Shown here: positions 23,184-43,672 of the stretch, one piece after another
Layout: every line of letters starts with the position of its first letter
How positions within the stretch are numbered: position 1 is the first letter of the stretch
Assembly: GCF_005405925.1 (NCBI RefSeq)
Contig: NZ_BJHV01000001.1
Coordinates: 7,998,001-8,062,000 of the forward strand
Direction: 5' to 3'
Length of the DNA stretch: 64,000 nucleotides
Origin: Streptomyces antimycoticus
GTDB lineage: Bacteria > Actinomycetota > Actinomycetes > Streptomycetales > Streptomycetaceae
Position numbers and translations under genes: made by a program
Notes under the pieces: model-generated
Told to the model about the DNA's origin: nothing
Seen by the model: the letters and a program-made list of their open reading frames with translations, nothing else
The model's database searches: none

Positions 23184-23279
23184 TGCAGACCGCTCGACAG
23201 GCCACGGCACCTGGATCATCCAATCGTGTTCGGGAGGATGGGCCCGCCGGACACCCGAACCTCTCTACGCTGGAGCACC

Positions 23280-23789: not shown

Positions 23790-23820
23790 ACGGCCCGCGC
23801 CCCCGGACAGGGGGTGCGGC

Positions 23821-25427: not shown

Positions 25428-26080
25428 TCACCACTGAACTCGTCTTCGTACGGCACGGCCAGGCCCAGTGCAACGCCGACGGCGTTGTCGGGGGTCCGCG
25501 CACCTGCACCGGCCTGACCAACCTCGGGTACGCGCAGGCTGAACAGGCCGCACGCCGCCTGGCTACCGAACACCTGATGAAGCCCTTCGACGTGGTCTTT
25601 GCGGGCCCGCGGATCCGTCTTGTCCAGACCGGCGAGATCATCGCCCAGACGCTGCAGATCCCAGTGCACCACGACGATCGTCTCGACGGCCCGGTCCACG
25701 GCGATGCCGACGGCAAACCTTGGGATGCGGTGAAGACGGCCGCCAACGGCGGACCGCATGCGCATCCCGACACTCCCTGGGCCGCTGGCTCCGACACCTG
25801 GAACGGGTTCCTGAAGCGCGCCAGCAGGAACCTGAGCCAGCTCATCGGGGAGAACCAGGGGAAGCGCATCGTGTTCGCGGCCCACGGGGAGACGGTTATC
25901 ACCGCACACACTCTGCTCCTCGGTATCCCGATCGGCTCACCGGCGGGCTTCACCCACAACCACGCCTCCATCACCCGCTGGCAGCACCACCGCAACCGCC
26001 TGGGCCAGACCCGCTGGATGATCGACCGGCACAACGACACCGAGCACCTCAGTCTCCTCACGCCGGAGCCGACTCCGTGA
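25424..26080 (+). CDS. Histidine phosphatase (phosphoglycerate-mutase-like)
   Basis: A 218-residue protein with the catalytic RHG motif at the N-terminus (LVFVRHGQAQCNADGVVGGP), FAGPRIRLVQTGEIIAQTLQ (second Arg) and the C-terminal IVFAAHGETVITAH motif (second His). This is the branch-1 histidine phosphatase fold, acting through a phospho-His. ATG 25424 overlaps the upstream stop. Together with the HAD phosphatase and NUDIX enzyme it gives the cluster three phosphate-removing enzymes, fitting a nucleotide-derived product. Confidence 0.9.
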   Translation: MITTELVFVRHGQAQCNADGVVGGPRTCTGLTNLGYAQAEQAARRLATEHLMKPFDVVFAGPRIRLVQTGEIIAQTLQIPVHHDDRLDGPVHGDADGKPWDAVKTAANGGPHAHPDTPWAAGSDTWNGFLKRASRNLSQLIGENQGKRIVFAAHGETVITAHTLLLGIPIGSPAGFTHNHASITRWQHHRNRLGQTRWMIDRHNDTEHLSLLTPEPTP

Positions 26081-26913
26081 TCGCGACATCGGACGACCCC
26101 CGGATCCGACTGGCGCACCACTTCCTCGGTGCAGTCGAGATCGCACCGGACCCCGTGCTTCCGCCTCGGGTCGTGCGTGTGGTGAGCGGCGACGGGCGTC
26201 ACTTCGTCGCCAAGCAGCACGCAGAGCGAGACCGGTACGCAGGGGAACTCCACGCCTACCGGGCATGGGTCACCCACCTGACCCGCCACGCGCCGAAGCT
26301 GGTCGGCCGTGACGACGCCACCCGCACCCTGCTGCTGACCGCCCGCACAGGCGATCGGGCGGACACTGCGGCCCCGGGCTCACCGGAGGAGGAACTGGCC
26401 CACCACGAGGCTGGCCACGTCCTCGGCAAGCTCCACCGGGCCACCGCCATGCCCCAGGGCGGCGCCGCCGGCGCAGCGCTCGCCGAGCGCTTCCAGAGCT
26501 GGATCGACCGGGCCGTCCACGCCGACCTGATCGACACGGCCGAGGAGAACCTGCTGAAGCACCACGCGGCCATCCTGGGAAACAGCGGCATGGACAGTGC
26601 GGTCTGCCATCTCGACTACCAGCCGCGCAACTGGCTTATAGGCGACACCTTCGGTGTCTGCGACTTCGAGCACATGCGACACGACGCCCGTGTCCGCGAC
26701 TTCGCACGGCTCGAATTCCGACGCTGGCAAGCCGCGCCCCACCTCCGTACGGCTTTCTTCGACGGCTACGGGCGTCCGCTAAACGACACCGAACGGCGCC
26801 TCCTGGAGTCCTTCGGCGCCATCGAGGCGGCCACGGCCCTGGTCAAGGGCCATCAGGAGAACGACCCCACCCTCAGCGAGCACGGCAGAACCGTCCTGTC
26901 CCGGCTCACCTGA
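26077..26913 (+). CDS. APH-family phosphotransferase
   Basis: A 278-residue kinase-like protein with a nucleotide-lobe Lys in HFVAKQHAERDRYAGELHAY and Brenner-type catalytic loop VCHLDYQPRNWLIGDT (D and N conserved), then FGVCDFEHMRHDARVRDFAR (metal Asp). These match the APH/choline-kinase superfamily well. The start is GTG 26077 (GTGA overlap). It differs from the first phosphotransferase of the cluster by its intact catalytic loop. The likely role is phosphorylation of an intermediate or of the product as self-resistance. Confidence 0.83.
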   Translation: MIATSDDPRIRLAHHFLGAVEIAPDPVLPPRVVRVVSGDGRHFVAKQHAERDRYAGELHAYRAWVTHLTRHAPKLVGRDDATRTLLLTARTGDRADTAAPGSPEEELAHHEAGHVLGKLHRATAMPQGGAAGAALAERFQSWIDRAVHADLIDTAEENLLKHHAAILGNSGMDSAVCHLDYQPRNWLIGDTFGVCDFEHMRHDARVRDFARLEFRRWQAAPHLRTAFFDGYGRPLNDTERRLLESFGAIEAATALVKGHQENDPTLSEHGRTVLSRLT

Positions 26914-26948
26914 CCTTCCTCTTCGACGACACCTCTCTGGAGATCCCC

Positions 26949-27947
26949 GTGCCGCAGCACGAGCAGCCCCCGATCACCGCTGCCCCCCGTCGGGCCGTGG
27001 TGACCGGCTCCGCCGGATTCATCGGCTCCCACCTCGCACACGCCCTCGTCCAGGCCGGTACCACCGTGATCGGCGTGGATCGCCGAGACTCGTCCACCGA
27101 CCCCACGGCCGCCGCCAACCTCGCTGCGCTGCGGGGGCTCCCGGGATACCACCACGTCACGGCCGACCTCCTCCACTGCGCGATCGACCCTCTCCTGATC
27201 GAGGCGGACGCGGTCTTCCACCTCGCCGGAATCCCCGGCGTACGGCCCTCCTGGGGACCGCAGTTCGGCGACTACCTCGCGTCCAACGTGCTGGCCACCC
27301 ACCGAGTCCTTGAAGCCTGCACCCGCATCAGTGTCCCCCGACTGGTCGTCGCCTCCTCCTCCAGCGTCTACGGTCCGACCGACGGCGGCGCGAGCCTTGA
27401 GGCCGACCGTCCGAAACCCGCCTCCCCTTACGCCGTGACCAAACTGGCCGAGGAACAGCTCTGCCTCGCCTACGCCGAGCGCCCCATCGGCCCCAGCGTT
27501 GTCGCCCTGCGGTACTTCACCGTCTACGGGCCCCGGCAGCGCGCCGACATGTTCACCCACCGCGCCCTGCAGGCCGCCCTGACCGGACAGCCGCTGCGTC
27601 TGTACGGAGACGGCCACCAGCGACGCGACTTCACCTACATCGACGACGTGGTCGCCGCCACGATCGCCGCCGCCGTCGTGCCGACCGCCCAGGGTGCCAT
27701 CAACGTCGGCGGCGGATCGAACGCATCGCTGCTGGACGTGATCAACATCGCCACCAGCCTCACCGGCCGCGACATCCAGCTCCACCAGGACCACGCACGC
27801 AACGGTGACGTCCTCCTCACCCGGGCCGACCCCAGCCGCGCCCGAGAAGTCCTCGGCTGGCAGCCGCGAGTCGACCTCCACCGCGGGCTGCGCGCCCACA
27901 TGCAGGCGCTGGCCGCCCAGGTTCCGGATTACAGCCGGGCCGCGTAG
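26949..27947 (+). CDS. NAD-dependent nucleotide-sugar epimerase/dehydratase
   Basis: The 332-residue product has the extended-SDR glycine motif VVTGSAGFIGSHLAHAL (~16-32), the VFHLAGIPGVRPSWG region, catalytic SSSSVYG and YAVTKLAEE (Ser/Tyr-xxx-Lys), and RYFTVYGPRQRADMF with the sugar-nucleotide-binding C-terminus. It resembles UDP-glucose/UDP-glucuronate 4-epimerases. Start GTG 26949 after CTGGAG. It probably makes an NDP-sugar used by one of the two glycosyltransferases. Confidence 0.9.
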   Translation: MPQHEQPPITAAPRRAVVTGSAGFIGSHLAHALVQAGTTVIGVDRRDSSTDPTAAANLAALRGLPGYHHVTADLLHCAIDPLLIEADAVFHLAGIPGVRPSWGPQFGDYLASNVLATHRVLEACTRISVPRLVVASSSSVYGPTDGGASLEADRPKPASPYAVTKLAEEQLCLAYAERPIGPSVVALRYFTVYGPRQRADMFTHRALQAALTGQPLRLYGDGHQRRDFTYIDDVVAATIAAAVVPTAQGAINVGGGSNASLLDVINIATSLTGRDIQLHQDHARNGDVLLTRADPSRAREVLGWQPRVDLHRGLRAHMQALAAQVPDYSRAA

Positions 27948-27978
27948 CCCTACGGCTCGGAACCCGAGAGGAGTGGTA

Positions 27979-29100
27979 ATGGAAAGTCCCGAGCGAGCGC
28001 GGCTGGACGCCTTCTTCCGGCAGATCACCGCGCAGTTCCCCGCCGGCGAGACGATCACGACGCTGGTCATCACGCACCTGCTCCCGGAAAGACCGGCATT
28101 CCTGCGCGCTATGGCAGCGGTGTCCACGGTCGGCGCCGTACTGCCCAAGCCCCGGTCGATCCATCAGCCGACCCTCGACGCCGTCCGTCGCACCCTCCCG
28201 GTCCACGACCTGACCCGGGAGGGGTTCACCGACGAGACGCAGGCCCTGGACTACCTGGAGGCCACGGCCGGCGGCCGGGACGTCGTCCTGGTGGACATCG
28301 GTGGGTACTTCGCGGCGAGCCTCGACACCCTCGTGAGCAAGTTCTCCGGCCGCATCCTCGGCGTCGTCGAGGACACCGAGAACGGTCACCAGCGGTACGC
28401 GGCCCTCGACTCCCTGCCGTGCCCGGTCGTGTCCGTGGCCCGCTCCCCGCTCAAGGACTGCGAGGACCACCTCGTCGGCCGGTCGATCGTGTTCTCCACC
28501 GACGCCCTCGTCCGCGCCCGTGGGGACATCCTGACCAGCCGCAACGCCTGCGTCATCGGCTTCGGCAAGGTCGGCCGCGCCATCGCCCAGACCCTTCGCG
28601 CCCAGGACCTGCGCGTCACCGTGTACGACAGCGATCCGGTCAAGCGGGTGCAGGCGCACTCCCTCGGCTTCCGCACCAGCGCGTCCACCACCGAGGCCGT
28701 GCACGACGCGGAACTCGTCCTGTGCGCCACCGGCAATCTCGCCCTTCGGCACGGAGACTTCGCAGCGTTGCGCAACGGCGCGTACCTCGGCTCGGTGACC
28801 TCCTCCGAGGACGAACTCGAACTCGGCAGCCTCCACGACCTCTACGAGCGCAGCCCAGTCGAAGCCCAGTTGACGCGATACGAGGTCACCGGCCACTACT
28901 TCTACGTTCTCGCCGACGGGGGTGCCGTCAACTTCGTACACGGCGCCGCCGTCGGCGCGTACATCCACCTCGTCCAGGCCGAGATACTCGCCGCCACCGC
29001 CGCACTCAGCCACACCCGCTTCCAGCCCGGACTGCACGAGATGCCGGCGGCCGACCGCAACACCATCGCCAGAACCTGGCTCCGCCACTTCGAAAGGTGA
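27979..29100 (+). CDS. S-adenosylhomocysteine-hydrolase-like NAD-binding protein
   Basis: A 373-residue protein. The NAD domain reads NACVIGFGKVGRAIAQTLRA ... VTVYDSDPVKRVQAHSLGF, as in S-adenosylhomocysteine hydrolase (SAHH), followed by AELVLCATGNLALRHGDFAA and a C-terminal ADGGAVNFVHGAAVGAYIHL. The SAHH GHP substrate signature is replaced (AAVGAY) and the N-terminal catalytic half is divergent and short, so it is unlikely to hydrolyse SAH. It may use tightly bound NAD to oxidise a nucleoside or sugar hydroxyl, by analogy with SAHH chemistry; that is inference. Start ATG 27979 behind GAGAGGAG. Confidence 0.75.
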   Translation: MESPERARLDAFFRQITAQFPAGETITTLVITHLLPERPAFLRAMAAVSTVGAVLPKPRSIHQPTLDAVRRTLPVHDLTREGFTDETQALDYLEATAGGRDVVLVDIGGYFAASLDTLVSKFSGRILGVVEDTENGHQRYAALDSLPCPVVSVARSPLKDCEDHLVGRSIVFSTDALVRARGDILTSRNACVIGFGKVGRAIAQTLRAQDLRVTVYDSDPVKRVQAHSLGFRTSASTTEAVHDAELVLCATGNLALRHGDFAALRNGAYLGSVTSSEDELELGSLHDLYERSPVEAQLTRYEVTGHYFYVLADGGAVNFVHGAAVGAYIHLVQAEILAATAALSHTRFQPGLHEMPAADRNTIARTWLRHFER

Positions 29101-29105
29101 CCCCG

Positions 29106-29657
29106 ATGCCTCCCTCCGTCGACCACGTCCGCTCTGTCACCGAGGCGTACCTCGCCCGCCACCCGGAGGAACGCGATTCCCTCACCCTGCTGTTCGCCGC
29201 GCTCGTCGGCACGGACGCCCCCACGAGCCGCAAGACGTACCCCGCCCACGTGACCTGCAGCGCCATCCTCATCGACGGCGACCGGCGCGTACTGCACATC
29301 GTGCACAAGGCGTCCGGGAAACTGCTGGCGCCCGGCGGGCACAACGAACCGGCTGACCGGCACCTGCGCGACGCCGCCCTGCGCGAACTGCACGAGGAGG
29401 CCGGCATCCCGCCCAGCGCCGTCGTCCCCCTCTCCGGCTACGAGGACGTTCCCCTCGACATCGACGTGCACACCATCGACGCGAACCCCTCGAAGGACGA
29501 GCCGACCCACCACCACGTGGACTTCCGCTGGGCCTTCCACCTCGGCGCAGAGCACGCGGTGACGCTCCAAGAAGAGGAGGTCGACGGCTACGAATGGCGG
29601 CCGTTCCCGAGTGCCGCTTCACCCACCGTCCGCGCCAAGCTCGCCCTGCTCACCTGA
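29106..29657 (+). CDS. NUDIX hydrolase
   Basis: About 183 residues. The Nudix region is GGHNEPADRHLRDAALREL followed by HEEAGI; the REx2EE core is kept, while the first Glu of the box (GX5E) is not at its usual place. Upstream VTCSAILIDGDRRVLHIVHK is the standard beta-sheet entry, and HHVDFRWAFHLG follows. I chose ATG 29106, which has AAAGG about 8 bp upstream; GTG 29097 overlaps the previous stop and is the alternative. It probably cleaves a nucleoside diphosphate linkage within this pathway or cleans up an activated sugar. Confidence 0.86.
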   Translation: MPPSVDHVRSVTEAYLARHPEERDSLTLLFAALVGTDAPTSRKTYPAHVTCSAILIDGDRRVLHIVHKASGKLLAPGGHNEPADRHLRDAALRELHEEAGIPPSAVVPLSGYEDVPLDIDVHTIDANPSKDEPTHHHVDFRWAFHLGAEHAVTLQEEEVDGYEWRPFPSAASPTVRAKLALLT

Positions 29658-29692
29658 AGTACCCACTCCGACCCGACCACCAGGAGGACGCC

Positions 29693-30559
29693 GTGGCCGC
29701 CACCACAGCCCAGCCGACCGGCGCCAAACCGCGCCGGCACATCGCCGTCATACCCTGCCGCTGGGGTGCTTCGCGTTTCCCCGGCAAACCACTGGCCGTC
29801 CTCGGCGACAAGCCGCTGCTCTGGCATGTCCACCAGCGCTGTCTGGAGGCCAAACGTCTCGACGGAGCTGTCGTGGCGACCGACGACGAACGCATCGAAG
29901 CGGCGTGCCGTCGACTGGGCATCGAGTGCATCCGTACTGGAGAGCACCTCACCGGCACCGATCGCGTCGCGGAGGTCGCCGAGCGCCTGCCGGCCGAGGC
30001 GTACATCAACGTCCAGGGCGACGAGCCGTTCATCTCGCCGACCGCCATCGACGACATCTCCGAGGCCCTGGAGTACAAGCCGCCGGGCACGCTCGCCGTG
30101 AACGCATATGCCGAGCTGCACGACCCGGGCGCCGTCCTCGACCACAACGTCGTCAAGGTCGTTGTCTCGGCCCAGAGCAAGGCTCTCTTGTTCTCGCGCC
30201 AGCCCATCCCCTACCCCAAAGGCGACCGCCCGAAGTACCTGCGCCAACTGGGTCTTTACGGCTTCACCGGCCCAGCTCTCCAGCACTTCCTACAGCTCCA
30301 GCAGGGACCCCTGGAGCGCGCCGAGGGAGTGGAGATGCTGCGCTTCGTCGAGCATGGCCACGCCGTACACATGGTTCCGGTCTTGGACGACGGTGTAGCG
30401 GTAGACACCCCGGAGGATCTGACGCGAGCCGAGCGCCTCTTCAACCAGTACGGCGGAGCAGTCCTCACGCGTGGCGCCGCAGGGCGGTCGCCTGCCGACG
30501 AAGAAGGCGCCGTCACCTACAGCGGCGACGTAGAGGTCATCCGCTCCATGGTGCGATGA
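29693..30559 (+). CDS. KdsB-type CMP-sugar synthetase (3-deoxy-ulosonate cytidylyltransferase-like)
   Basis: A 288-residue protein. Signatures are IAVIPCRWGASRFPGKPLAV (CTP/P-loop), GAVVATDDERIEAACR, HLTGTDRVAEVAERL, YINVQGDEPFISP and GVAVDTPEDLTRAERL, all typical of KdsB. KdsB joins CMP to Kdo for lipopolysaccharide in Gram-negatives, which Streptomyces lack, so another acid sugar or phosphorylated substrate is expected. Start GTG 29693 behind CAGGAGG. It is the last gene of the plus-strand cluster; the next stretch holds an amidase remnant on the other strand. Confidence 0.9.
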   Translation: MAATTAQPTGAKPRRHIAVIPCRWGASRFPGKPLAVLGDKPLLWHVHQRCLEAKRLDGAVVATDDERIEAACRRLGIECIRTGEHLTGTDRVAEVAERLPAEAYINVQGDEPFISPTAIDDISEALEYKPPGTLAVNAYAELHDPGAVLDHNVVKVVVSAQSKALLFSRQPIPYPKGDRPKYLRQLGLYGFTGPALQHFLQLQQGPLERAEGVEMLRFVEHGHAVHMVPVLDDGVAVDTPEDLTRAERLFNQYGGAVLTRGAAGRSPADEEGAVTYSGDVEVIRSMVR

Positions 30560-30850
30560 CGCCCTCGGCCGTCCCTCTGAGCAGGGGTGCCAGGCGCTCG
30601 GCCAGCGCGAGCAAGCTCAAGCTTCGGTCCGCATGGGCCGGGCCTACGAGCTGCGCACCGATCGGGAGGCCCTCGGCGCTGCGCGCAAAAGGCATGACCA
30701 AGCTGGGCAGACCGACGTGGCTGGTGAGATTGGCCCAGCCGGTCTGGTCGAAGAAGCTCTGTTCGACGCCTTCGACCGTGAGAGAACGGCTTCCGGCTGG
30801 GCGGTGCACATTCGCACAGCCCTCGATCTCGCTGACCGGCTGTTGGAACG
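30537..30850 (-). pseudogene. C-terminal remnant of an amidase-family enzyme
   Basis: The minus strand encodes RSLTVEGVEQSFFDQTGWAN, then LTSHVGLPSLVMPFARSAEG and LPIGAQLVGPAHADRSLSLL, the C-terminal end of the amidase signature family (GatA-like, ~450 residues when complete). The N-terminal two thirds with the Ser-Ser-Lys catalytic residues are missing, and the upstream DNA is occupied by the methyltransferase promoter region. It is a truncated leftover marking a junction between the nucleoside-like cluster and the following operon. Confidence 0.7.
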
Positions 30851-30946
30851 GCATCATCGCCCGGCGCATGCCCCGTTGCTGAGAGTGCTCATTTGGGTAG
30901 TCTGGCAAGTCGGGGCAGGGCGATTCATCAGGGTTGGGAGGCGTCG

Positions 30947-31741
30947 GTGCGGCGTGACATGGGGGAGCACTACCAGAATCTCGCCAGCACGTATGACGAC
31001 AACTGGGCCTATAGTCCGGACTTCGTGCAGTGGATGTCCGGACAGATCGCCTCGACTCTACGGCTGTCGGCGAACGACCGCATGGCGGACATCGGCTGTG
31101 GCACGGGCCTGTTCGCCGGCGGTATAGCGGAGGCCCTACGCCCACGCCACCCGGTGCTGTGCGTGGACCCTTCGGCGGCGATGCTTGATCAGCTTCCCTC
31201 GTCCCCCGCTCTGTCACCGCTCCGCGCCTCGGCCGAGGAGATCGCGGACCAGACGGTGCCCCTGCCCTATGAACGGCTGGACGCGATGTGGCTGAAGGAA
31301 TCGGTGCACCACGTCACCGACCCTGCCACCACACTCACGGGCCTGGCCCGGCTGCTGGCGCCCGGCGGTCGGCTGCTGGTGGCGATGTTGCCGACCACGA
31401 TCGACTACCCGCTGTTCGCCGAGGCCCTCAAGCGGTACGAAGAGCTCCAGCCCGACCCGGCCGTCATCGCCCGGCACCTTGCCGATGCGGGGCTCCGGGC
31501 CGAGCTGACCTTCGTGGAGCATGAGCTGCGCCTGGACAGGGAGCGCTACTTGTCCATGGTCAGGTCCCGGTACATGTCCGTGCTGTCGACCTTCAGCGAT
31601 GGGGAGCTCGACGCCGGGATCGAGGAGATCCGGGCCCGCTATCCGGGACCGGAGTTCGTCTTCCCCGATCGATTCGCGTTCGTCCTCGGTGTCCGCGACG
31701 ACTCCACTGGCGCCACCGAATCCGACGGAGGTGCGCGGTGA
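30947..31741 (+). CDS. SAM-dependent methyltransferase, first gene of the HEPN-NACHT operon
   Basis: A 264-residue class I methyltransferase: motif I MADIGCGTGLFAGGIAEAL (~50), VLCVDPSAAMLDQL, LDAMWLKESVHHVTDPATTL and LARLLAPGGRLLVAMLPTT. GTG at 30947 has GGGAGG 5 bp upstream; ATG at 30959 is the alternative. Its stop overlaps the GTG of the HEPN-NACHT gene (GTGA), so both are translated together. The substrate could be a small molecule, RNA or protein; nothing in the sequence decides. It opens a four-gene operon. Confidence 0.85.
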   Translation: MRRDMGEHYQNLASTYDDNWAYSPDFVQWMSGQIASTLRLSANDRMADIGCGTGLFAGGIAEALRPRHPVLCVDPSAAMLDQLPSSPALSPLRASAEEIADQTVPLPYERLDAMWLKESVHHVTDPATTLTGLARLLAPGGRLLVAMLPTTIDYPLFAEALKRYEELQPDPAVIARHLADAGLRAELTFVEHELRLDRERYLSMVRSRYMSVLSTFSDGELDAGIEEIRARYPGPEFVFPDRFAFVLGVRDDSTGATESDGGAR

Positions 31742-34455
31742 GCGCTCCGGTGGACGAGCGGCTACGCCGGTTACGGCACGAGCTGGACGATCACGCCCGG
31801 GTCGCGGAGCACCTCGGGATCGATCTGGAGCGGCCCTTACGGTCGCTGGACGACGGCTATCCGGAGAACGCCATCGCCCTGGTCGGCAAGATCACCGAGA
31901 AGCTGCTCAAGCAGCTGTGGCGCCACCATGAGGTGGCCGGCGACCCGTCCGGCCGCATGCTCAGCGAGCTGATCAAAGGCTGCCGCCCGCACATCCGCAG
32001 CACCACAGTCCTCGATGCGCTGACCGACATCCAGCGCCTGCGCAACCGCTCCACCCACGACGGCTACGAGATCGCCGAAGAAGACGGCCTGCTCGCCGTG
32101 CGCCGCCTGGTCGATGTGCTCGCCTGGTTCACCAGCACTGCCAGTCCCGCCCTGACCGGGAACGACCCGCGGATGCAACCTGAAGTCGCGCGCCGCGTGG
32201 AGTTCCTCGCGGGCCTCTACCTGACGCTGGGCTACCGGGTCTCCAAGCGCTTCGTTCTCTCCACCGAGACGGTCTACCAGCTGTTCTGCCGCGAATCCGG
32301 CGTGCGCCTGGAGTACGTGGAACTTCTGCTGTCCAAGGATGCCGCCGAGCTGCGCAACGTGCTGGAGACCACCGGCGGGGAACTGCTGAAGACCCGGCTG
32401 CCCAAGCTCACCCGGTTCGTCATCCTCGACGACGCGGTGGAACAGCTCCACCCTCTGCTGGGGCACGATTACCGGATCGTGGGCTACGAAGGCTTCATCG
32501 ACACCGTCGTCGACCTTCAGGCTCACTTGGCCTCCTGCGCCACGGCCGCGCCGGAGATGCCGCGCGAGCGTCGGCCCTTGCCCGGTGCCCTGCTCACCAC
32601 CGACCCGCACACCGGCGAATCCCGTATCACCGAGACGGAAGACGCCGAACAACTCCTGACCCGGCTCATGCAGGAGTCGGCCAACGTTCTGATCACCGGC
32701 AAGCCGGGAAGCGGCAAAAGCACCCTGCTGCGCGCCCTGGTCAACGACACCCCTGCTACGGCCCGCCGTTTCCGTTTCTACTTCGACCTCAGCCTGAAGC
32801 CCAAGGACGAGGCCTTCGCCGAATATGTGGCCCGCATGCTGGCACCCTGCGTGCCGGGCGAACGCGCCCGTGCCTTCGACCTGTTCCTGTACCTGATCCG
32901 CTCCGGTTCGGCTCTCTGTGTTCTGGACGCCGTCGACGAGGCCGTGGACGAGCCCAGCCCCGAGGGGTTCCTGCGTTTGTTCGCGGACCTGGCCTCGGTG
33001 CTGTCGGCCGAGTCCTGCGTCGTGCTCAGCTCCCGGGTCTCCTTCCTGGCCGATTCCCCGCAGATCCGGCGCCTGCTCGACTGCTCCAGCGCGATATCCG
33101 AGCAACTGGTCGAGCAGATGTACGCCAACGGCGTGGATCCGCAGCGCGTCCCCCGCTTCAGCATGCTGCGCCTGACGGACACACCGGCCGACCGCGAGCC
33201 CGCCTCGGACACCGGCGCCGCCGTCCTGTCCACGCCGCTGGCACGACGCCTCCAGAACGCCCTGGACATTGCGGGGACCCCAACGGTCGCCGAGCTGATC
33301 GGCACCCACATCGACCACGCCCTCGCCGACGCCGGACTCGCCCACCTCGCCCCGGCCCTCGTTGATACGTGCGGCCGGGCCTTCCTGGAAGACCGCACCG
33401 TCTTCCCCCTGCTCGAACTGCACAACGCACTCGGACCGCAAGCCTTCGACGGCGGCCGGATCACTCCCGAGGACTTCCGCCTGATCCCGCTGTTCCGCCC
33501 CGCCGGCCCCCAGGCACTGGCCTTCATCCACTCCGCCTACCAGGAGCTGCTCGCCGCCCGCTACCTCAGCACCCCGGACGGCCGCGAACAGGCAGCCGAG
33601 CTGCCCGGAGCCCCCTACCTCACGGAACAAGTCCGCGCCTTCCTCGCCGCACACCCCACCGCCAACGCACACCCCGCACTAGCCGAGGACTGTGTGCTCC
33701 ACCCCGGGGTGTACCTCGTCGGCCCAGCCGAACGGCTGCTGCTGCGCCGCGTCCACCACCCGATCCGATTCGACCGCTACCCGGTCACCGTCGCCCGCTA
33801 CCGACCCTTCCTCCAGGCCCTGCGACCCGACGGAACCTCACCGTGGGACCACCCCGACCAGCCGCCCGGCACCACCCACGCGCCCTGGACCGAGCGGCTG
33901 CGCGCCCCGGACTACTACGACGACCCCCGCTTTGACGACCACCCGGCCATCTGCGTCAGTTGGTGGGCCGCGTACTCCTTCGCCGCTTTCGAAGGCAAGC
34001 GTCTGCCCACCTCCCTGGAATGGGAAGCCGCCGCCCGTGGAACCGACGGTCGCCTCTTCCCCTGGGGCGATACCCCCGACCTCGACGCGGTGAACTGCGC
34101 CGATACCTGGGCCGGCCGCCCCCTGGTCACCTACCAGGCATGCAAAGAAGAATTCGACCGCGGCGGCTTGGGCCACGCCTGGGTCACCCCGGTCGACGCC
34201 CGTCCCGCCAACCGTTCCCCCTACGGGATCGCCGACATGGTCGGCAACGTCTGGGAGTGGACCTCCACCAGCGTGGGCGATCCGGACGAGGCCGTCATCT
34301 GCGGTGGCGCCTTCGACAATCCTCTACGCGCTGTCCAGGCCAGTGCCAAGGGCCTGTTCCGCCGCTCCCGAGCCAGCAACGCCGTCGGATTCCGCTGCGT
34401 CACCGAGCTGTCTCCCACCATCGGTGACGACGTGAAGGAGGACCCGCAGCCATGA
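31738..34455 (+). CDS. HEPN-NACHT NTPase with C-terminal formylglycine-enzyme (C-type lectin) fold
   Basis: The product has 905 residues and three parts. An N-terminal helical domain (~1-140) carries RNRSTH at 102-107, the HEPN ribonuclease motif (R-N-x3-H). A NACHT ATPase follows, with Walker A GKPGSGKST (321-329) and Walker B LDAVDE (396-401). The C-terminus (~655-895) is a SUMF1/formylglycine-generating-enzyme fold (RLPTSLEWEAAARGTDGRLF, GNVWEWTSTS). The cysteine pair that does catalysis in Streptomyces formylglycine enzyme is absent (CGGAFDNPLRAVQASAKG), so this domain more likely senses a ligand. The layout effector-switch-sensor matches bacterial NLR-like defence proteins. Coupled by 4-bp overlaps on both sides. 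Confidence 0.85.
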   Translation: MSAPVDERLRRLRHELDDHARVAEHLGIDLERPLRSLDDGYPENAIALVGKITEKLLKQLWRHHEVAGDPSGRMLSELIKGCRPHIRSTTVLDALTDIQRLRNRSTHDGYEIAEEDGLLAVRRLVDVLAWFTSTASPALTGNDPRMQPEVARRVEFLAGLYLTLGYRVSKRFVLSTETVYQLFCRESGVRLEYVELLLSKDAAELRNVLETTGGELLKTRLPKLTRFVILDDAVEQLHPLLGHDYRIVGYEGFIDTVVDLQAHLASCATAAPEMPRERRPLPGALLTTDPHTGESRITETEDAEQLLTRLMQESANVLITGKPGSGKSTLLRALVNDTPATARRFRFYFDLSLKPKDEAFAEYVARMLAPCVPGERARAFDLFLYLIRSGSALCVLDAVDEAVDEPSPEGFLRLFADLASVLSAESCVVLSSRVSFLADSPQIRRLLDCSSAISEQLVEQMYANGVDPQRVPRFSMLRLTDTPADREPASDTGAAVLSTPLARRLQNALDIAGTPTVAELIGTHIDHALADAGLAHLAPALVDTCGRAFLEDRTVFPLLELHNALGPQAFDGGRITPEDFRLIPLFRPAGPQALAFIHSAYQELLAARYLSTPDGREQAAELPGAPYLTEQVRAFLAAHPTANAHPALAEDCVLHPGVYLVGPAERLLLRRVHHPIRFDRYPVTVARYRPFLQALRPDGTSPWDHPDQPPGTTHAPWTERLRAPDYYDDPRFDDHPAICVSWWAAYSFAAFEGKRLPTSLEWEAAARGTDGRLFPWGDTPDLDAVNCADTWAGRPLVTYQACKEEFDRGGLGHAWVTPVDARPANRSPYGIADMVGNVWEWTSTSVGDPDEAVICGGAFDNPLRAVQASAKGLFRRSRASNAVGFRCVTELSPTIGDDVKEDPQP

Positions 34456-34745
34456 CGGCAGACCGCCAACAGAAGTTCGCCTCCGCCGGGGCTCCCCGAT
34501 TCGGACGCGTCGTCGACCGCCGCCCCCACGGTGGCGGCATCCACGGCCGCGCCAGCAGCTACATCGTCCAGGACGACGAAGACGGCCGCCACTACACCTT
34601 CGACTACACCCACATCGTCACCGAAGGATTCCGCACCCTGCACACCGGCGAACGCGTCCGCTTCCACATCGCCGCCCATGACACCTGGCGCGCCGAATTC
34701 GTCATCCGGCTCAACCAGCCCTCCCCGGAGGCGTTCTACGAGTGA
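34452..34745 (+). CDS. Cold-shock-domain-like small protein
   Basis: A 97-residue protein. FGRVVDRRPHGGGIHGRASS, YIVQDDEDGRHYTFDYTHIV and GFRTLHTGERVRFHI match the beta strands and C-terminal loop of the cold-shock/OB fold (compare the usual GFRTLxxGxxVxF). The RNP1 and RNP2 motifs are altered, and there is an insertion between strands. Such a protein could bind RNA or DNA. It is coupled to the HEPN-NACHT gene (ATGA) and to the CorA-like gene (GTGA), so it should be made in step with them. A part as nucleic-acid adaptor or antitoxin-like brake on the HEPN domain is speculation. Confidence 0.7.
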   Translation: MTADRQQKFASAGAPRFGRVVDRRPHGGGIHGRASSYIVQDDEDGRHYTFDYTHIVTEGFRTLHTGERVRFHIAAHDTWRAEFVIRLNQPSPEAFYE

Positions 34746-36067
34746 GGCGCACGCGCACCGCCCCCACCGGCGCACGCCAGATCATCGCCGTCATCCTGCC
34801 CGCACGCCTACCCGCCGACCCACCCTGGCCCGAAGGCCCCCTGCCCTTCACCCACGGCGTCCGCACCACCACCACCGACACCCGCCGCACCTACTTCACT
34901 CCGGCCGCCGCCAGCGTCCTCTACGGCACCCCCGACCGCCCCACCCGTTGGCACCGGCAGGTCCGTCATGCCCACGGCTCCACCACCATCGACGGCATAG
35001 AACTCCTGCGTACCCCCACCGAGGACGACCCCGATCGTGCCCTGGCGGTCCTCCACCTGACCATCACCGGCCCGGAACTTCTCGACACCCTCCGCTCCCT
35101 CGCCCACCGCCCCGGCACCACCCCACCGTTCGAGATCACCGGCCCCGTCGTCACCGCCCTTTTGCAGGACCACGCCCACACCAGGCCGAACACACTCCTC
35201 GAAGGGCACGTCACCGTCGAGACCGACGCCCTTCCCTACACCGTCACCCTGCTCACCCCCGGCCGACGGCCCCTGCCTCGTCTCAACCGCGGCCGGGACC
35301 ACCGCCACTGGCCCGCGGCCCAACAATGGCTCTGGGCACTCGCCTCCCGCACCAACCCCGACGACTACCCACCCGACCCCGCCACCGTTCCCCAACTCAC
35401 CGCCGGTGCCCTGCGCATCTCAGCCGACTGGAGCGCGCTCGTCCTCCGCCAGGGCGCGGCATTCATCGGCCACCGCCGCGACCACGGGCCCGCCGACCCG
35501 TTCTACGGCTACGCCGAACTCCACATGCGCAGCATCTACCTCGACGCCCTCCTGTTCGGCATGATCCAGCGCGCCCACATCGACCACCTCACCGAAGACC
35601 TCGCCCAGGTCTTCACCGGCCCCGGCGAAGCCAACCGCCTCGCCGACCTCGAACGCCGGATCGCCCACTTCCGCAGCACCTACTGGCGCCAGCACCTCAC
35701 CACCCACGGCACCGCCAACGACCTCCTCATGGCCTACCAGTATCAGTACCGCCTCTCCGACCGCTTCACCGAAATCCTTGCCGAAGCCGCCGACCACAAC
35801 CGGCTCATCCAGACCCAGGAAAACCAGCAGATCAGCGGCGCCCTCGGCATCCTCACCATTCTGGGTCTGCCCCTGGGCACCGCCCTGGGCGCACTCCAAG
35901 TCCTCGGCGACCAGAACCCCTGGCACCTCCTCACCGCCACCACCGGCGCCCTCGCCGCCACCGCCGCACTCCTCACCACCCGCTACGGCCGCCTCGTCCT
36001 CACCTCACTCCGAGGTCGTCCCCTGACGGATTCGCGACAACTGACTCGCGGTCACCGGGACTGCTGA
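34742..36067 (+). CDS. CorA-like membrane protein with large cytoplasmic domain
   Basis: A 441-residue protein. Residues ~1-375 are soluble and end in long helices (RLADLERRIAHFRSTYWRQH ... RFTEILAEAADHNRLIQTQE). Two C-terminal transmembrane helices follow: ALGILTILGLPLGTALGALQ and LLTATTGALAATAALLTTRY. This is the topology of CorA-type channels, without the GMN signature at the first helix. In a conflict setting CorA-like proteins can act as membrane effectors. The gene is the last of the four-gene operon; a 313-bp gap follows. Confidence 0.72.
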   Translation: MRRTRTAPTGARQIIAVILPARLPADPPWPEGPLPFTHGVRTTTTDTRRTYFTPAAASVLYGTPDRPTRWHRQVRHAHGSTTIDGIELLRTPTEDDPDRALAVLHLTITGPELLDTLRSLAHRPGTTPPFEITGPVVTALLQDHAHTRPNTLLEGHVTVETDALPYTVTLLTPGRRPLPRLNRGRDHRHWPAAQQWLWALASRTNPDDYPPDPATVPQLTAGALRISADWSALVLRQGAAFIGHRRDHGPADPFYGYAELHMRSIYLDALLFGMIQRAHIDHLTEDLAQVFTGPGEANRLADLERRIAHFRSTYWRQHLTTHGTANDLLMAYQYQYRLSDRFTEILAEAADHNRLIQTQENQQISGALGILTILGLPLGTALGALQVLGDQNPWHLLTATTGALAATAALLTTRYGRLVLTSLRGRPLTDSRQLTRGHRDC

Positions 36068-36380: not shown

Positions 36381-36713
36381 ATGAAGTTCGACATGGGAAG
36401 CACGACTCTGTCGACTCTCGGGAAGAGCACGACGGGGTCCAGTGACGACCTGGGGGCGCTGATCCGGCTGCTGATCGCCGCCGCGGAGCCACTGGAGGGG
36501 AAATTCAACGGCGCCGGCAAGGTGGCGTTCGACTCGTTCAAGCTCCGCGCTGATGAGATCTCGGCCGCGCTGAACGGTTCTCTGCAGTCCATCCTGGGCG
36601 GGCAGTCGGGCATGGATACCGCGTTCGCCACGGGTGATCAGGAGCAGGAGGACAACGCCCATCAGCACATCGCTGGTGCCAATTTTGAGGCCGCCCGCTT
36701 CTCCGGGCGGTAG
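36381..36713 (+). CDS. WXG100-like/ESX-type small protein
   Basis: A 110-residue, mostly helical protein with a central small-residue stretch (EPLEGKFNGAGKVAFDSFKL ... SAALNGSLQSILGG) suggesting a helical hairpin like ESX substrates, although the WXG turn itself is not present (FNG instead). ATG 36381 follows GGGGGAAG. It precedes a second short helical protein by 13 bp, as in paired ESX heterodimers secreted by EccC-dependent systems. It probably serves as a substrate or structural partner of the type VII machine encoded downstream. Confidence 0.75.
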   Translation: MKFDMGSTTLSTLGKSTTGSSDDLGALIRLLIAAAEPLEGKFNGAGKVAFDSFKLRADEISAALNGSLQSILGGQSGMDTAFATGDQEQEDNAHQHIAGANFEAARFSGR

Positions 36714-36726
36714 AGGGGGATTCCCG

Positions 36727-37038
36727 ATGGGGCAGAGCCAGGACCGTAACTCTTACGACGTGGGCGCCTCGGTGGAGGTGCAGGGCAGCCTGCAGGGGAT
36801 TATCGGCCAACTTGAGCGGGTCCTCGCCGACCGGGACCGCGCGGTGAAGGCCGCGATGGCCGACTTCACCGCTGATGGCGTCTCGGACGAGTACCACGGC
36901 AAGGAGGTCCGCTGGAACCGTGCGGCGGCCGAGGTGCGGGAGATCATCCGCCTGGTGCGATCGACGCTGGAGAAGAACGACGGCACCGCTCAGTCGACAC
37001 TGGCCAAGGCCAAATCCGCTGTGGACAACATCGGTTGA
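36727..37038 (+). CDS. ESX-type small helical protein, partner of 36381-36713
   Basis: A 103-residue protein with two long amphipathic helices (GSLQGIIGQLERVLADRDRA and NRAAAEVREIIRLVRSTLEK) joined by ADGVSDEYHGKEVRWN, close to the length and layout of ESX proteins. No signal peptide. ATG 36727 is 13 bp after the previous stop. The pair probably forms a helical heterodimer exported through EccC. Confidence 0.75.
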   Translation: MGQSQDRNSYDVGASVEVQGSLQGIIGQLERVLADRDRAVKAAMADFTADGVSDEYHGKEVRWNRAAAEVREIIRLVRSTLEKNDGTAQSTLAKAKSAVDNIG

Positions 37039-37096
37039 TCCGAGCCTTGAGGACGCGGTGAGCAGGTGACGGGGCGGTAGCTGGGGGGATTGGGCA

Positions 37097-37486
37097 ATGT
37101 CCAAGTGGGACATCACCCCGTCCGGGGTCGAGTTCGTGACCTCGCTGGTGGGTGACGCGATAGACGACATCGACGCAGGCGTCAGGTCGTACGGGAAGCA
37201 CATGGAGAGCGCGGCCACATCGGCCGGCACCATCAGCGAGCCCATGTGCGGGGCGGCCATGACCGGCCCGGTCGGGGCGGCTCTGGCGCTGTTCGTCGAG
37301 AAGACCACGCGTGAGGCGCTGTTCATCGGGGCACGGGCGGCCCAGTCGGCGAACGGCGCTCGCGAGGCCACCGCGTATTACGTCGCCGGGCATCACCACA
37401 TGGCTGCCGATGCGCAGCACAAGGCCCTTGCGGCACCGAAGATCGACTTGCCGGGCGACGACAAACGGGGTGGCGGCCACAAGTGA
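37097..37486 (+). CDS. DUF6507-like protein of the type VII locus
   Basis: A 129-residue helical protein (WDITPSGVEFVTSLVGDAID ... AGVRSYGKHMESAATSAGTI). It resembles the short helical proteins that precede toxins in Streptomyces type VII loci (DUF6507 by recollection). The C-terminus is basic and His-rich. It overlaps the toxin gene by 4 bp (GTGA), so it may act as a secretion chaperone or co-secreted partner for the toxin. Confidence 0.7.
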   Translation: MSKWDITPSGVEFVTSLVGDAIDDIDAGVRSYGKHMESAATSAGTISEPMCGAAMTGPVGAALALFVEKTTREALFIGARAAQSANGAREATAYYVAGHHHMAADAQHKALAAPKIDLPGDDKRGGGHK

Positions 37487-39945
37487 AGATGATCGATCCG
37501 GCGAGCATTCCGGAGTTCACCGGCGATCTGGAGCAGCTGGACAAGGACGTCTCCGGGTTGCGCGGTGACGCGATCACCATCCGCGACGGCGGCATGCATG
37601 CGCATTCCCGCTTCCAGATGCTGGAGGGCTTCTACACAGCGCCGGAGGCGGGCCAGCTGTTTGCCTCCACATGGCCGGCGGCCGTGAAGGCCGACGCCTT
37701 CGCCGGCGACCTGGAGAAGGTGGCCGACGCGCTGGACACGTTCGCCTATGAGATCCGCCCGCTCGTCAAGCGGCTGAAGCAGCTCAAGGCAGATGCTTTC
37801 GCGTTCGTCGACAGTGTCGAGGGCGATGACGACTGGACCGAGGACGAAGGCAAAGTCGACCGTCATCAGCAACTGTGGGACGGCGTGAACGCTGCCGTAG
37901 CCGCCTTCCAGGAAGCCGAGCGCAAGGCTTCCACCACCATCTCCGGACTCGTGGGCGGTCCGAAATTCCTGGCGGACGACGGCAGCCACACCCGGAACCG
38001 CAAGAAGGTGATGTACGGCTACGACCTCGACAGCCTCGAACAAGGCAAGGAACTTCCCTGGGGCAGTCCGGTCAGCCAAACCTACGACGCACTGGACTTC
38101 GGCCACCATTTCAAGAGCTTCGTCTGGGACGGCCTGGTAGTCGACAACATCTGGGGCGGACTCAAGGGCCTCAAAACCCTCACCGGACTCGACGGTGGCG
38201 ACGCGGCCGGGAAGGCCTGGGGGCATCTCGGAGATGTCGTGGGCGGCATCGGCCAGTACACCATCAAGCCCTACGACGCGTTCATGGACTGGGCGTTCGG
38301 GGAGGATCAGGACAGCCCCGACGAGGCCCGGCAGAAGCAGGCCGCCAAGGACTTCGGCAAGTCCCTGGTCGCCTGGGACATGTGGAGCGAGAACCCCGCC
38401 CGTGCCTCGGCGACGGTGGTTTTCAATGGCCTCACCCTCGGCGCGGTCCCGGCCGCTCGCGTCATCAAGGGAGGCAAGGCAGGGGCGGCAGCCCAGGGCG
38501 CGGCCAAGATCGGCGAGTATCTCGACCCGCTCTCCGCAACCTTCAAGATGGGGGGCAAGGCCGCCAGTTCTCTGCCCAAGCTCTCTGAGCTCACGGCCAA
38601 CACTCGCGCCCTCGACAACGTCGCCGGCTCGAACCGCCTCCACAGCCACATTGAACTGTCGGACGGCTCCAGGGTCCGCATCGAGGACGGCGCGTTCATC
38701 CGCCTCGATGCCGACGGCAATCTTGTCCATGACACGCCGCGCCAGGAGCCACGGGCAGAGCAGCGGGCTTCCCAACACGAGGCCGCACCCGAACAGCGCG
38801 AACTCGCGGAGATCGGCGCGAACTCGCGGACACCCGGATCCCATGTCGGGCGCGGAGACTCCGCCAGCCCCACGCACGATGCCCCACCGTCCTCGAGGGG
38901 CAATGGATCAAGCGGCATCCCAGCTCGAAGGGGGATCACAGGCGGATTTGATGGCCTTGATGCTCCGAGGTCGTCGCATGCCGGCCTGAACGACGGCTCT
39001 GGCCCACATCACCCGGGCGGCTCGGACGCCCACGGCGAGGGACGGGGTGACCACAACGGCGGCGCCGACCGGGGCAAAGCCTTGACCGAACAAGAAAAGA
39101 TAGTACGTCGGCAAGTCGATCGCGCCAACAACGAGCCTGGATATTTCGAGAAATTCTACAAGAATAACGGCAACCGCATCAGGCTCTCCAGAGTAGACGA
39201 AAGCGGATTCACGCCCCCGCAGCTGGTATGGGACGCGCGGACGAAGAGCTGGATCGCCGCTTCCGATGCTCCACCGCCTCTTCCCGAGCGTTACATTGAC
39301 GGAGCCGACAGGACGGGGAATGCGGATTCCTTGTCAGGCTCTGAGGCCCTGAAGGACCTCGACAAAGCGGCTGCGAAGCGGCATTCGGCGATTAGCGCGG
39401 ACAAGACAGCCGAGGAAACTCTCCAGAAGGCAAAGGAAGCACTGGCGACACACGACTCCCTCTCCAACCGCAAGGCACTCGCTGCGGCACAGGCCGCACA
39501 CAGGCCGCTGCACAAGGCTATGTCGGATGCCGCTGAAAAGTACGGTGAGGCGATAGCCCAGCATCATGTAATCCCGGAGCGCTACCCCAAGGCCCAAAGG
39601 GAGGTACTCGACGGGCCCGCGAATGGCAACGATCAGTTTGACCAAGTATGGCGGCGCCATGATGGCGGTTACGTGGTGATAGAAGCAAAGAGTAACGTGA
39701 GAACGGAGCTAGGCGCCCGCAATCTGCCGAGTGGAAAGCGTGTGGCGCAGGGGACCAGGGAATATTTCGATGACATTCTCCGCGAGATGCGTGAACGCGG
39801 CAAGAAGAACCGTAATGAGCTCAGGCTGGCCGACGAGCTCGAAGATGCCCTCGATCAAGGCAAACTGGACTATATCCTTGTCAAGGGGAAAGTCAGTGGC
39901 GGCAAGTATGCTGGTTACCACATGCGGAAGTTCGACATAAGCTGA
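37483..39945 (+). CDS. Type VII secreted polymorphic toxin with restriction-endonuclease-like C-terminus
   Basis: An 820-residue protein. The N-terminal ~110 residues are helical (FTGDLEQLDKDVSGLRGDAI ... TFAYEIRPLVKRLKQLKADA), an ESX/LXG-like trafficking domain. The middle (~270-400) has Gly/Ala-rich hydrophobic segments, then a low-complexity Ser/Gly/His linker (~430-560) and a helical stretch. The last ~110 residues form the toxin tip: HHVIPERYPKAQ, FDQVWRRHDGGYVVIEAKSN (D720 ... E734-x-K736) and TREYFDDILREM, the PD-(D/E)XK nuclease pattern. The start is GTG 37483. It is followed by Imm49, as expected for a toxin-immunity pair. The predicted target is DNA or RNA of a competitor. Confidence 0.85.
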   Translation: MKMIDPASIPEFTGDLEQLDKDVSGLRGDAITIRDGGMHAHSRFQMLEGFYTAPEAGQLFASTWPAAVKADAFAGDLEKVADALDTFAYEIRPLVKRLKQLKADAFAFVDSVEGDDDWTEDEGKVDRHQQLWDGVNAAVAAFQEAERKASTTISGLVGGPKFLADDGSHTRNRKKVMYGYDLDSLEQGKELPWGSPVSQTYDALDFGHHFKSFVWDGLVVDNIWGGLKGLKTLTGLDGGDAAGKAWGHLGDVVGGIGQYTIKPYDAFMDWAFGEDQDSPDEARQKQAAKDFGKSLVAWDMWSENPARASATVVFNGLTLGAVPAARVIKGGKAGAAAQGAAKIGEYLDPLSATFKMGGKAASSLPKLSELTANTRALDNVAGSNRLHSHIELSDGSRVRIEDGAFIRLDADGNLVHDTPRQEPRAEQRASQHEAAPEQRELAEIGANSRTPGSHVGRGDSASPTHDAPPSSRGNGSSGIPARRGITGGFDGLDAPRSSHAGLNDGSGPHHPGGSDAHGEGRGDHNGGADRGKALTEQEKIVRRQVDRANNEPGYFEKFYKNNGNRIRLSRVDESGFTPPQLVWDARTKSWIAASDAPPPLPERYIDGADRTGNADSLSGSEALKDLDKAAAKRHSAISADKTAEETLQKAKEALATHDSLSNRKALAAAQAAHRPLHKAMSDAAEKYGEAIAQHHVIPERYPKAQREVLDGPANGNDQFDQVWRRHDGGYVVIEAKSNVRTELGARNLPSGKRVAQGTREYFDDILREMRERGKKNRNELRLADELEDALDQGKLDYILVKGKVSGGKYAGYHMRKFDIS

Positions 39946-39957
39946 CTGGAGAACGTA

Positions 39958-40818
39958 GTGGCTACGACGGTGCCTCGGCATGGCAACCCAGGTCCCGATG
40001 ACGAGGGCTATGCGCAGGACCTCGGCGAGGGGCTGGCCAAAACCATCTCGAGGCTGGAGCGATCGTCGCGCTGGTTCGGAGGCGCGCTCGACAAGTCCGT
40101 ACTCCATGTCCAGGCGCGTCTGGCCGTGGATCCCAGCGCGTCTGAAATCGAGACCTGGGAAGCCGTGGTCTCGGCGATGCAGGTGGGTTCTGCCGTCTTC
40201 GCCTCAGCGAGCGCTCCTGAGGGCACCGTGCAGTGCCGCATCAACCATGAGATGCGGACCCTGCCCGCCACCGGGCCACAACCGTACGCCGACGCTGGCA
40301 ATTGGCTGACAGCATTGTGGTTCGCCATCGTCTGTCGTGACCAGAAGCGCATGACCCAGCTCTGTGAGTTGTCCCTCGACTTGTTGCGTGCTTCGGGAGC
40401 GGAGTACGACGAGTACATCTACCACTGGGTGGACAGCCTGCAGACCTACTGGCTGGAGCGGCCGGGTTTGGTCGATAAGCTGGTAGCCGCGATCGAGAAC
40501 TCTGACCCGAGCGTGGCGCGGATCGCCACGCGAGAGCAGCTCAACAAGATTCTCTACCAGCCCATCAACCTCTTCCGCTGTTTCCTGCGCAAGGACCACG
40601 CCGCGTTCAACGACGCGCTTCAGGAGGCCCTGGAGCTGCACAAGTCGTACTGGACCGCCAACGAGGAGCGGGAAGAGAGTCCGGCCGGATATCTGGCCCT
40701 CGGTCCGCTTGCCATCACCTGTCTTGCCTACGACGCCGGATTTCCCATTGAGGTCGAATCAGACTACTTGCCCGAGCATCTGCTCCAGCGCGACTGGCTG
40801 GGCGAATTTCCGACGTGA
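39958..40818 (+). CDS. Imm49-family immunity protein
   Basis: A 286-residue, mainly helical cytoplasmic protein (DKSVLHVQARLAVDPSASEI ... AGNWLTALWFAIVCRDQKRM ... LQTYWLERPGLVDKLVAAIE), matching the Imm49 family by length and layout. It starts at GTG 39958, 12 bp after the toxin stop. Immunity proteins block the C-terminal domain of the cognate toxin to prevent self-killing; here that would be the nuclease at the end of the 37483-39945 product. Confidence 0.82.
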   Translation: MATTVPRHGNPGPDDEGYAQDLGEGLAKTISRLERSSRWFGGALDKSVLHVQARLAVDPSASEIETWEAVVSAMQVGSAVFASASAPEGTVQCRINHEMRTLPATGPQPYADAGNWLTALWFAIVCRDQKRMTQLCELSLDLLRASGAEYDEYIYHWVDSLQTYWLERPGLVDKLVAAIENSDPSVARIATREQLNKILYQPINLFRCFLRKDHAAFNDALQEALELHKSYWTANEEREESPAGYLALGPLAITCLAYDAGFPIEVESDYLPEHLLQRDWLGEFPT

Positions 40819-40852
40819 CGCACGCACACTCTGCAAGAGGTAGTGAACGACC

Positions 40853-41122
40853 ATGGCAGCACAGGACTATGACAGCCAATTGCTGGAATCGGTGTCGGTG
40901 CGGCGTCGGCGGTTGCGGGACGCCTTGTTGTTGGGAACGCAGCGGCAGCGGCGGTCTGTGGATGAGCGGCTGGGGAAGGTCGTTGCCGGGACGGTGATTG
41001 CCGGGGTGTTGTGTGCCGGATGCGTGGGCTGGTCGTTCATTTCGCATCGGGTCGCTGGGCAGAGCCCGTATGGGCCTTCGGTATCGTCGACCGCGCCATC
41101 CGTGGGGAGTTCGGCTCGATGA
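40853..41122 (+). CDS. Small single-pass membrane protein of the type VII locus
   Basis: An 89-residue protein with a basic N-terminal half (VSVRRRRLRDALLLGTQRQR) and one transmembrane helix (VVAGTVIAGVLCAGCVGWSF, ~43-62) followed by a Ser/Pro-rich tail outside. The topology is like the small N-in proteins coded next to EccD/EccC in Streptomyces and may substitute for a shortened EccB-like element, but no domain is recognisable. EccD begins 13 bp downstream. Confidence 0.7.
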   Translation: MAAQDYDSQLLESVSVRRRRLRDALLLGTQRQRRSVDERLGKVVAGTVIAGVLCAGCVGWSFISHRVAGQSPYGPSVSSTAPSVGSSAR

Positions 41123-41135
41123 TAGGTTCGAACGC

Positions 41136-42500: not shown

Positions 42501-42510
42501 GGGTGGCGGC

Positions 42511-43665: not shown

Positions 43666-43672
43666 GGACGGA

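Follow-up and report, generated by a model that had tools for sequence, protein, structure and literature searches.

The Operon and Its Products

The window analysed here is a 64,000-nucleotide stretch of Streptomyces antimycoticus DNA (contig NZ_BJHV01000001.1, positions 7,998,001 to 8,062,000) and its + strand carries, at 30947–36067, an operon of four genes encoding a methyltransferase (MT), a protein with HEPN, NACHT and formylglycine-generating enzyme (FGE)-like domains (HNF), a cold-shock-like protein (CSD) and a CorA-like protein (COR). The four open reading frames (ORFs) are uninterrupted and overlap by 4 bp at each of the three joints (GTGA at 31738, ATGA at 34452 and GTGA at 34742), exactly as an earlier sequence-only reading of this DNA had stated, and the two HNF motifs that it picked out, RNRSTH at residues 102–107 and GKPGSGKST at 321–329, are likewise in place. 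The features of the operon are as follows:

30947..31741, + strand: MT, class I S-adenosylmethionine (SAM)-dependent methyltransferase, 264 amino acids; Pfam Methyltransf_11, 6e-14; the first gene in 18 four-gene copies
31738..34455, + strand: HNF, 905 amino acids, with HEPN, alpha/beta linker, NACHT, helical and FGE/C-type-lectin-fold parts in that order; Pfam, Foldseek and motifs in 63 aligned rows
31738..32157, + strand: HEPN domain of HNF, residues 1–140, with the Rx4H motif R102–H107; DUF4145, Foldseek match to 2hsb and motif
32635..33162, + strand: NACHT core of HNF, residues about 300–475, with P-loop 321–329, Walker B VLDAVDE and SSR; Pfam and motifs
33685..34413, + strand: FGE/C-type-lectin-fold domain of HNF, residues about 650–892; PF03781, 2.3e-33; no catalytic cysteine pair
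34452..34745, + strand: CSD, cold-shock/OB-like small protein, 97 amino acids; weak Pfam CSDE1 and CSD matches; 152 homologues
34742..36067, + strand: COR, CorA-like, 441 amino acids, a soluble N-terminal domain followed by C-terminal membrane helices; PADLOC CorA, 8e-9, with AlphaFold, Foldseek and VIA-align

Conservation and Distribution

That the four genes are kept together in other actinobacteria, a point on which the sequence-only reading had made its interpretation depend, is borne out by 18 copies with the same gene order, which come from three families of actinobacteria; no frame break is visible in 16 of them, and COR identity reaches down to about 41%. The 4-nt overlaps recur in these copies, in 16 of the 18 between MT and HNF, in 17 between HNF and CSD and in nine between CSD and COR, counts that are not independent because the copies are related by descent. 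The pairwise distances of the four proteins are correlated (Mantel r 0.811–0.971, reached in 0 of 2000 permutations, with shared descent uncorrected), which indicates co-inheritance and, together with the overlaps, upholds the view that the four genes form one unit.

Among 297 Streptomycetaceae genomes, HNF N-termini were found in eight (in G276 as a stray fragment within a broken copy) and CSD matches in 12, nine strong (E 1.5e-31 or better) and three weak; COR adjoins all eight HNF N-termini and all nine strong CSD matches. All four genes are present in G000, G146, G103, G255, G192, G200 and G270, with broken copies in G080 and G276, and three further four-gene copies were found in S. samsunensis (L001), S. 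coffeae (L002) and S. mirabilis (L086), the last on a linear plasmid about 4 kb from its end and the one case of plasmid carriage. In a class-wide sample COR was found in 16 of 394 genomes, 13 of them outside the Streptomycetaceae, where eight have all four genes in order, one has a partial operon (L075) and four have just COR, whole or in part. The altered copies L042, L043 and L075 show deletions, or an interruption with a stray HEPN piece on the 3′ side. Two copies kept among the 18 are also altered: L081 has its MT split over two frames, and in L001 CSD leaves its usual frame shortly before its end; the stops flagged in HNF of L039 and MT of L080 sit at the end of the gene, as judged from ORF and stop positions. 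The flanking genes are mostly unshared between the Streptomycetaceae copies.

Beyond these genomes, phages gave no match to COR, the protein searched for there (HNF was not). A search of 396 genomes of the phylum found the HNF N-terminus in the window's own genome alone, a single-protein query of a thin sample that does not prove absence. The HNF homologues that carry names, among the 120 matches listed, are actinobacterial, and 152 CSD homologues were found. For each of the alignments A1 to A3 the 120 matches listed were thinned by hand to spread identity, leaving 62, 58 and 49 of them, to which the window protein was added; A1, with 63 rows, is the alignment of HNF.

The HEPN–NACHT–FGE Protein

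The HEPN, NACHT and FGE domains first assigned to HNF from its sequence are borne out, the HEPN and FGE folds by structure search and NACHT by Pfam and motifs. The HEPN motif is intact in all 63 rows of A1, as RNRSTH (53 rows), RNRSSH (six) or RNRSAH (four), so that every row has the Rx4-6H pattern with a polar residue following the arginine. The DUF4145 model scores 17.0 bits on the window copy (cut-off 23.1), 24.4 on P0028 and 12.4 and 19.9 on two distant homologues, and the AlphaFold model of HNF (predicted local distance difference test score, pLDDT, 62.0; mostly 70–89 in the HEPN part) matches the HEPN protein 2hsb in Foldseek (probability 1.00, TM over target 0.71, E 0.02), so the model supports a HEPN helical fold for the N-terminus. 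The alpha/beta linker that follows (residues 141–270) has no firm identity and a model confidence of 36–70.

Pfam NACHT (PF05729) matches HNF at 4.1e-8, above cut-off. The P-loop G-x-x-G-S-G-K-S, the LDxxDE motif and SSR do not vary across A1, with G326, K327 and S328, D397, D400 and E401, and S431, S432 and R433 invariant. Foldseek also returned NOD2, NLRP3 and NLRP9 (probability 0.47–0.98, E 0.03 and up), matches weaker than those of the HEPN and FGE parts.

At the C-terminus, Pfam FGE-sulfatase (PF03781) matches above cut-off, Foldseek finds CalU17/FGE at E 8e-6 and the best single-sequence match in the PDB is SUMF2, the non-catalytic paralogue of the formylglycine-generating enzyme. Formylglycine-generating enzymes carry a catalytic cysteine pair near the C-terminus; at this place HNF has D860-N861-P862, invariant in A1. 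The domain thus shares the fold of the formylglycine-generating enzyme, SUMF2 and CalU17 but lacks the cysteine pair, and appears from its sequence to be non-catalytic.

Mean pairwise identity in A1 is 0.85 for HEPN, 0.74 for the linker, 0.80 for NACHT, 0.59 for the post-NACHT stretch, 0.77 for FGE and 0.45 for a short spacer, so the parts that change fastest are the post-NACHT helical stretch and the spacer rather than the lectin-like tail. A search for the reverse transcriptase of a diversity-generating retroelement (DGR) gave no RVT_1 match in the organism's own genome, with the control positive in three of 14, and a hypervariable sensor fed by a DGR was rejected on this ground and for the lack of excess variation in the FGE domain. 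An exchange of the C-terminal sensor, considered for P0012 and P0014, was likewise dropped: the P0012 protein ends at residue 641, and P0014, a fused copy, follows HNF over residues 43–684 and then changes frame.

The CorA-like, Cold-Shock-like and Methyltransferase Proteins

Against the PADLOC-DB models the four proteins gave just weak or partial matches (mad2, mad8, CorA and others) at E up to 0.1, with no match to CSD at that threshold. The CorA-like nature given to COR by the sequence-only reading holds, since three PADLOC CorA models match it (8e-9, 1.2e-7 and 1.2e-5), all within residues 225–402 in the C-terminal half. Its AlphaFold model (pLDDT 73.9) shows an N-terminal domain of alpha/beta type followed by two helices, a long one at 338–388 and another at 393–411, the layout of the CorA superfamily (long stalk helix into the first transmembrane helix, TM1, a short loop and TM2). 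CorA fills the first seven rows in Foldseek, with a best E of 4.4e-3 and none under 0.001, and VIA-align scores ZntB at 8.2 and CorA at 7.9, values that helical models can reach by chance. Pfam found nothing in COR at E 0.1 and a profile search of the PDB had 0 matches. Members of the CorA superfamily carry a GMN motif after TM1; it is missing from the COR consensus, which has LQVLGDxxP at that place.

COR also occurs without MT, HNF or CSD alongside (L047–L049, L051, L052 and L054–L062, of genus g7 and others), and many of these genomes keep it at a conserved position of the chromosome. In a COR tree of 46 rows (L069–L071, L083 and L084 left out) the operon CORs are scattered with many solitary CORs nested among them and six changes are needed for the operon label, a pattern to be expected if the operon were old and COR had sometimes been left behind.

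A distant COR homologue (32–36% identity) heads a second operon, seen in L064–L067 and L093–L096, in the order COR, a 600-aa protein, a Cys-rich KH protein and a 660-aa vWA-like protein. COR is followed by a gap of 3–92 nt, with 4-nt overlaps at both of the joints that come after. The 600-aa protein has no Pfam match and the KH domain is confirmed (both in L065), and the 660-aa protein has the look of a vWA-type protein with a DxSxS motif (by eye, L093 and L095). This looks like a separate conflict system with the same membrane module.

CSD matches the Pfam CSDE1 model at 4e-5 (best 24.1 bits, cut-off 27) and the CSD model at 0.007, both sub-threshold, and its family keeps an F-x-Y...IVTEGFRT block. 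Because of the weak fold match and the precedent of fused cold-shock domains (below), CSD may be a trans-acting RNA binder. Relatives of MT at 47–50% identity lie outside the operon in four genomes (L087–L090), two of them beside genes that resemble energy-coupling factor (ECF) transporters by eye, so the MT family is not specific to defence. That MT modulates the system is a guess, and a connection through SAM to CorA-type effectors is a lead only.

Genomic Surroundings

The flanks of the operon were compared with those of solitary COR genes. The operon set comprised 99 proteins at 19 loci, three of them broken (L042, L043 and L075), the window and L001 standing outside it; the control set comprised 103 of 150 proteins at 14 of 19 solitary-COR loci, which are not independent because many belong to one syntenic clade. 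At E 1e-20 PADLOC matched 66 families in the operon flanks against 10 in the control flanks, a tally that overstates the contrast because about 60 of the operon-side matches come from just seven proteins. By the names of the best 25 of the 66 families, the operon flanks include a type IIG restriction-modification protein beside the broken copy L043 (4.6e-292), a DNA cytosine methylase at L046 (2e-105), a DruE-like protein at L079 (3e-181) and type I-E Cas3e (8e-217) and Cas8e (5e-124) at L080, with a weak DruE piece at L077 (1.7e-22) and a RecD-like helicase at L045. As regards a context like that of type III CRISPR systems, where a Cas10 locus and a phosphodiesterase or lyase accompany corA, the Cas genes among these best 25 stand beside one operon locus and are of type I-E. 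The control flanks matched SspA/DndA, Cas12f-type, subtilase and mad-type families, taken from their names for generic enzymes and a transposon nuclease. A defence-island association of the operon is thus suggestive, though not proven.

The window holds, 14 kb to the 3′ side of the operon and apart from the 19 loci counted, a helicase/methylase set at 50350–62943 with DpdE-, DruE- and DrmMI-like members, a mixture of parts from Druantia, Dpd and DISARM:

50350-54690: DruE-like protein
54678-55283: MZB/DruE-like tail
55838-58789: DpdE-like protein, E 0
58786-62943: DrmMI-like protein

A type VII-secretion-like cluster occupies 36381-49082. By eye it holds small proteins of WXG type and a toxin-like protein of 820 aa, two of which were searched against Pfam without a match, and it includes an FtsK/EccC-type ATPase at 44041-47679. 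Immediately 5′ of the operon an antisense short ORF (30537-30857) has the appearance of a C-terminal amidase remnant, and further thymidylate-synthase-, carbamoyltransferase- and sugar-nucleotide-type proteins (19457-30559, by eye) are perhaps a natural-product or modified-nucleoside cluster.

Relation to Described Systems

The Avs and bNACHT antiphage proteins have, like HNF, an N-terminal effector and a sensor with a NACHT switch in between, but differ from the operon in effector, sensor and operon partners. STAND NTPase–FGS systems join a NACHT-type STAND NTPase and an FGE/FGS domain in one chain with a swappable N-terminal effector in multicellular bacteria (Kaur et al., 2021; PMC8195603). 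Their N-termini include TIR, DRHyd, calcineurin, peptidase or kinase-type domains and effector-associated domains (EADs), HEPN not being among the examples named in section 7 of that paper (PMC8195603), whereas the present operon has HEPN and adds three coupled genes. The FGS domains described there are often, although not always, DGR-diversified (PMC8195603), unlike here, where the genome yielded no DGR reverse transcriptase; NACHT-CLec targets of DGRs have been treated as antigen sensors (PMC10907252).

The other half of HNF also has a precedent, in HEPN–STAND proteins of which some end in a cold-shock-like OB fold; the paper describing them counts DUF4145 among the HEPN families (Anantharaman et al., 2013; PMC3710099). 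The likeness extends to the N-terminal HEPN with Rx4-6H, the STAND NTPase and the cold-shock-type RNA binder, but in the operon the cold-shock-like part is a gene of its own and an FGE domain takes the C-terminus. In vWA ternary systems, KH and cold-shock domains are named on the effector side (Kaur et al., 2020; PMC7159879). The CorA of type III CRISPR systems has been shown to bind SAM-AMP and to act as an effector at the membrane (Chi et al., 2023; PMC10600005), and COR resembles it in having a soluble N-terminal domain, CorA-like membrane helices and a defence setting; it differs in belonging to a four-gene unit without cas10 and in having its model matches confined to residues 225–402. 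Other new NACHT and HEPN systems are named in PMC13092281. The sequence-only reading knew of no system of this composition, and the four-gene combination was indeed not recognised in searches of the open-licence literature, but both halves of HNF have published precedents, and the operon is a fresh variation on the published STAND–FGS and HEPN–STAND(–cold-shock) themes.

Proposed Mechanism and Alternatives

On balance we lean towards a mobile operon, like the nucleotide-binding leucine-rich repeat (NLR) proteins, that acts in abortive infection with HEPN as the main effector. The trigger, order of events and outcome that we infer are these. The FGE/lectin-fold C-terminus of HNF, alone or with CSD, would meet an infection cue, ATP-bound NACHT domains would oligomerise, and the paired HEPN domains would cut RNA so that the cell stops. 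CSD may give or guide the RNA, as a separate-gene counterpart of the cold-shock domain fused in some other HEPN–STAND proteins, COR in the membrane may be a second effector or an anchor, and MT might tune the system.

Several observations weigh against this proposal. The operon is rare, being complete in just seven of the 297 Streptomycetaceae genomes. A clear defence neighbour stands at four of 19 operon loci against none recognised among the listed families at 14 control loci (one-sided p 0.095), and the PADLOC tally is inflated as described. The NACHT part of the HNF model is poor (pLDDT under 50 at 367–497), and the FGE domain is not hypervariable, its mean identity of 0.77 standing against 0.80 for NACHT. 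COR was found in 32 of the Streptomycetaceae genomes, weak matches and four of the KH-operon type included, and 23 of the 32 are without an HNF N-terminus and without a strong CSD match, so COR is not bound to HNF. The sequence-only interpretation is partly supported: the unit and the domains stand, and some copies have defence neighbours, but the occurrence of COR without HNF and the MT relatives outside the operon count against part of it. A role for COR as a second effector arm is suggested by its fold and coupling and weakened by its occurring alone.

The conserved rather than diversified FGE domain would suit an RNA-based switch for cell death under stress or during development in filamentous actinobacteria, in place of phage defence, as would the actinobacterial names of the HNF homologues listed, the conserved chromosomal place of solitary COR in one clade and the scarcity of clear defence neighbours. 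The patchy spread, the differing Streptomycetaceae flanks, the broken copies and the linear-plasmid copy fit mobile defence better, and we think such a switch unlikely. It is also conceivable, if quite doubtful, that the main effector is COR, acting as a channel of CorA type that opens on a signal, in the way proposed for type III CRISPR CorA, with HEPN mainly making or trimming RNA that CSD passes on. The three PADLOC CorA models and the CorA/ZntB/MRS2 folds would be in keeping with this, as would the recurrence of COR in the second operon with KH and vWA-like proteins and the finding that CRISPR CorA is needed for immunity in the B. fragilis Cmr system (PMC10600005).

A small-molecule pathway of the EgtB/EgtD type, in which an FGE-fold enzyme works with a SAM methyltransferase and the other domains are regulators, is suggested by MT and the FGE-fold domain lying side by side, by the database name of HNF ('SUMF1/EgtB/PvdO family nonheme iron enzyme') and by the MT relatives outside the operon, two beside transporter genes. 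Yet the cysteine pair is replaced by the invariant D-N-P, the FGE domain is fused to a NACHT switch and a HEPN domain, and no biosynthetic gene was recognised as recurring in the clustered flanks, which makes this pathway very improbable. A bolder extension of the abortive-infection proposal, and an unlikely one as a whole, is a two-armed bacterial NLR in which HNF cuts RNA and, via an RNA-binding adaptor, gates a CorA-type effector, with MT supplying or removing a SAM-linked signal and COR serving as a general module outside CRISPR. If that were true, COR would be plugged into at least two RNA-linked conflict systems, one with NACHT, HEPN and CSD and one with the KH and vWA-like proteins of L064–L067.

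Significance

Three strands of immunity that the literature was found to treat separately come together in this operon: the switch of NLR-type proteins, the HEPN RNase accompanied by a cold-shock-type protein, and the CorA-like protein of the membrane. As the four genes are co-inherited, the whole unit can be tested at once, and it gives a concrete setting in which to ask if proteins resembling CorA serve as membrane effectors beyond CRISPR systems, and what it is that NLR-like proteins of bacteria sense through their FGE/lectin-fold tails.
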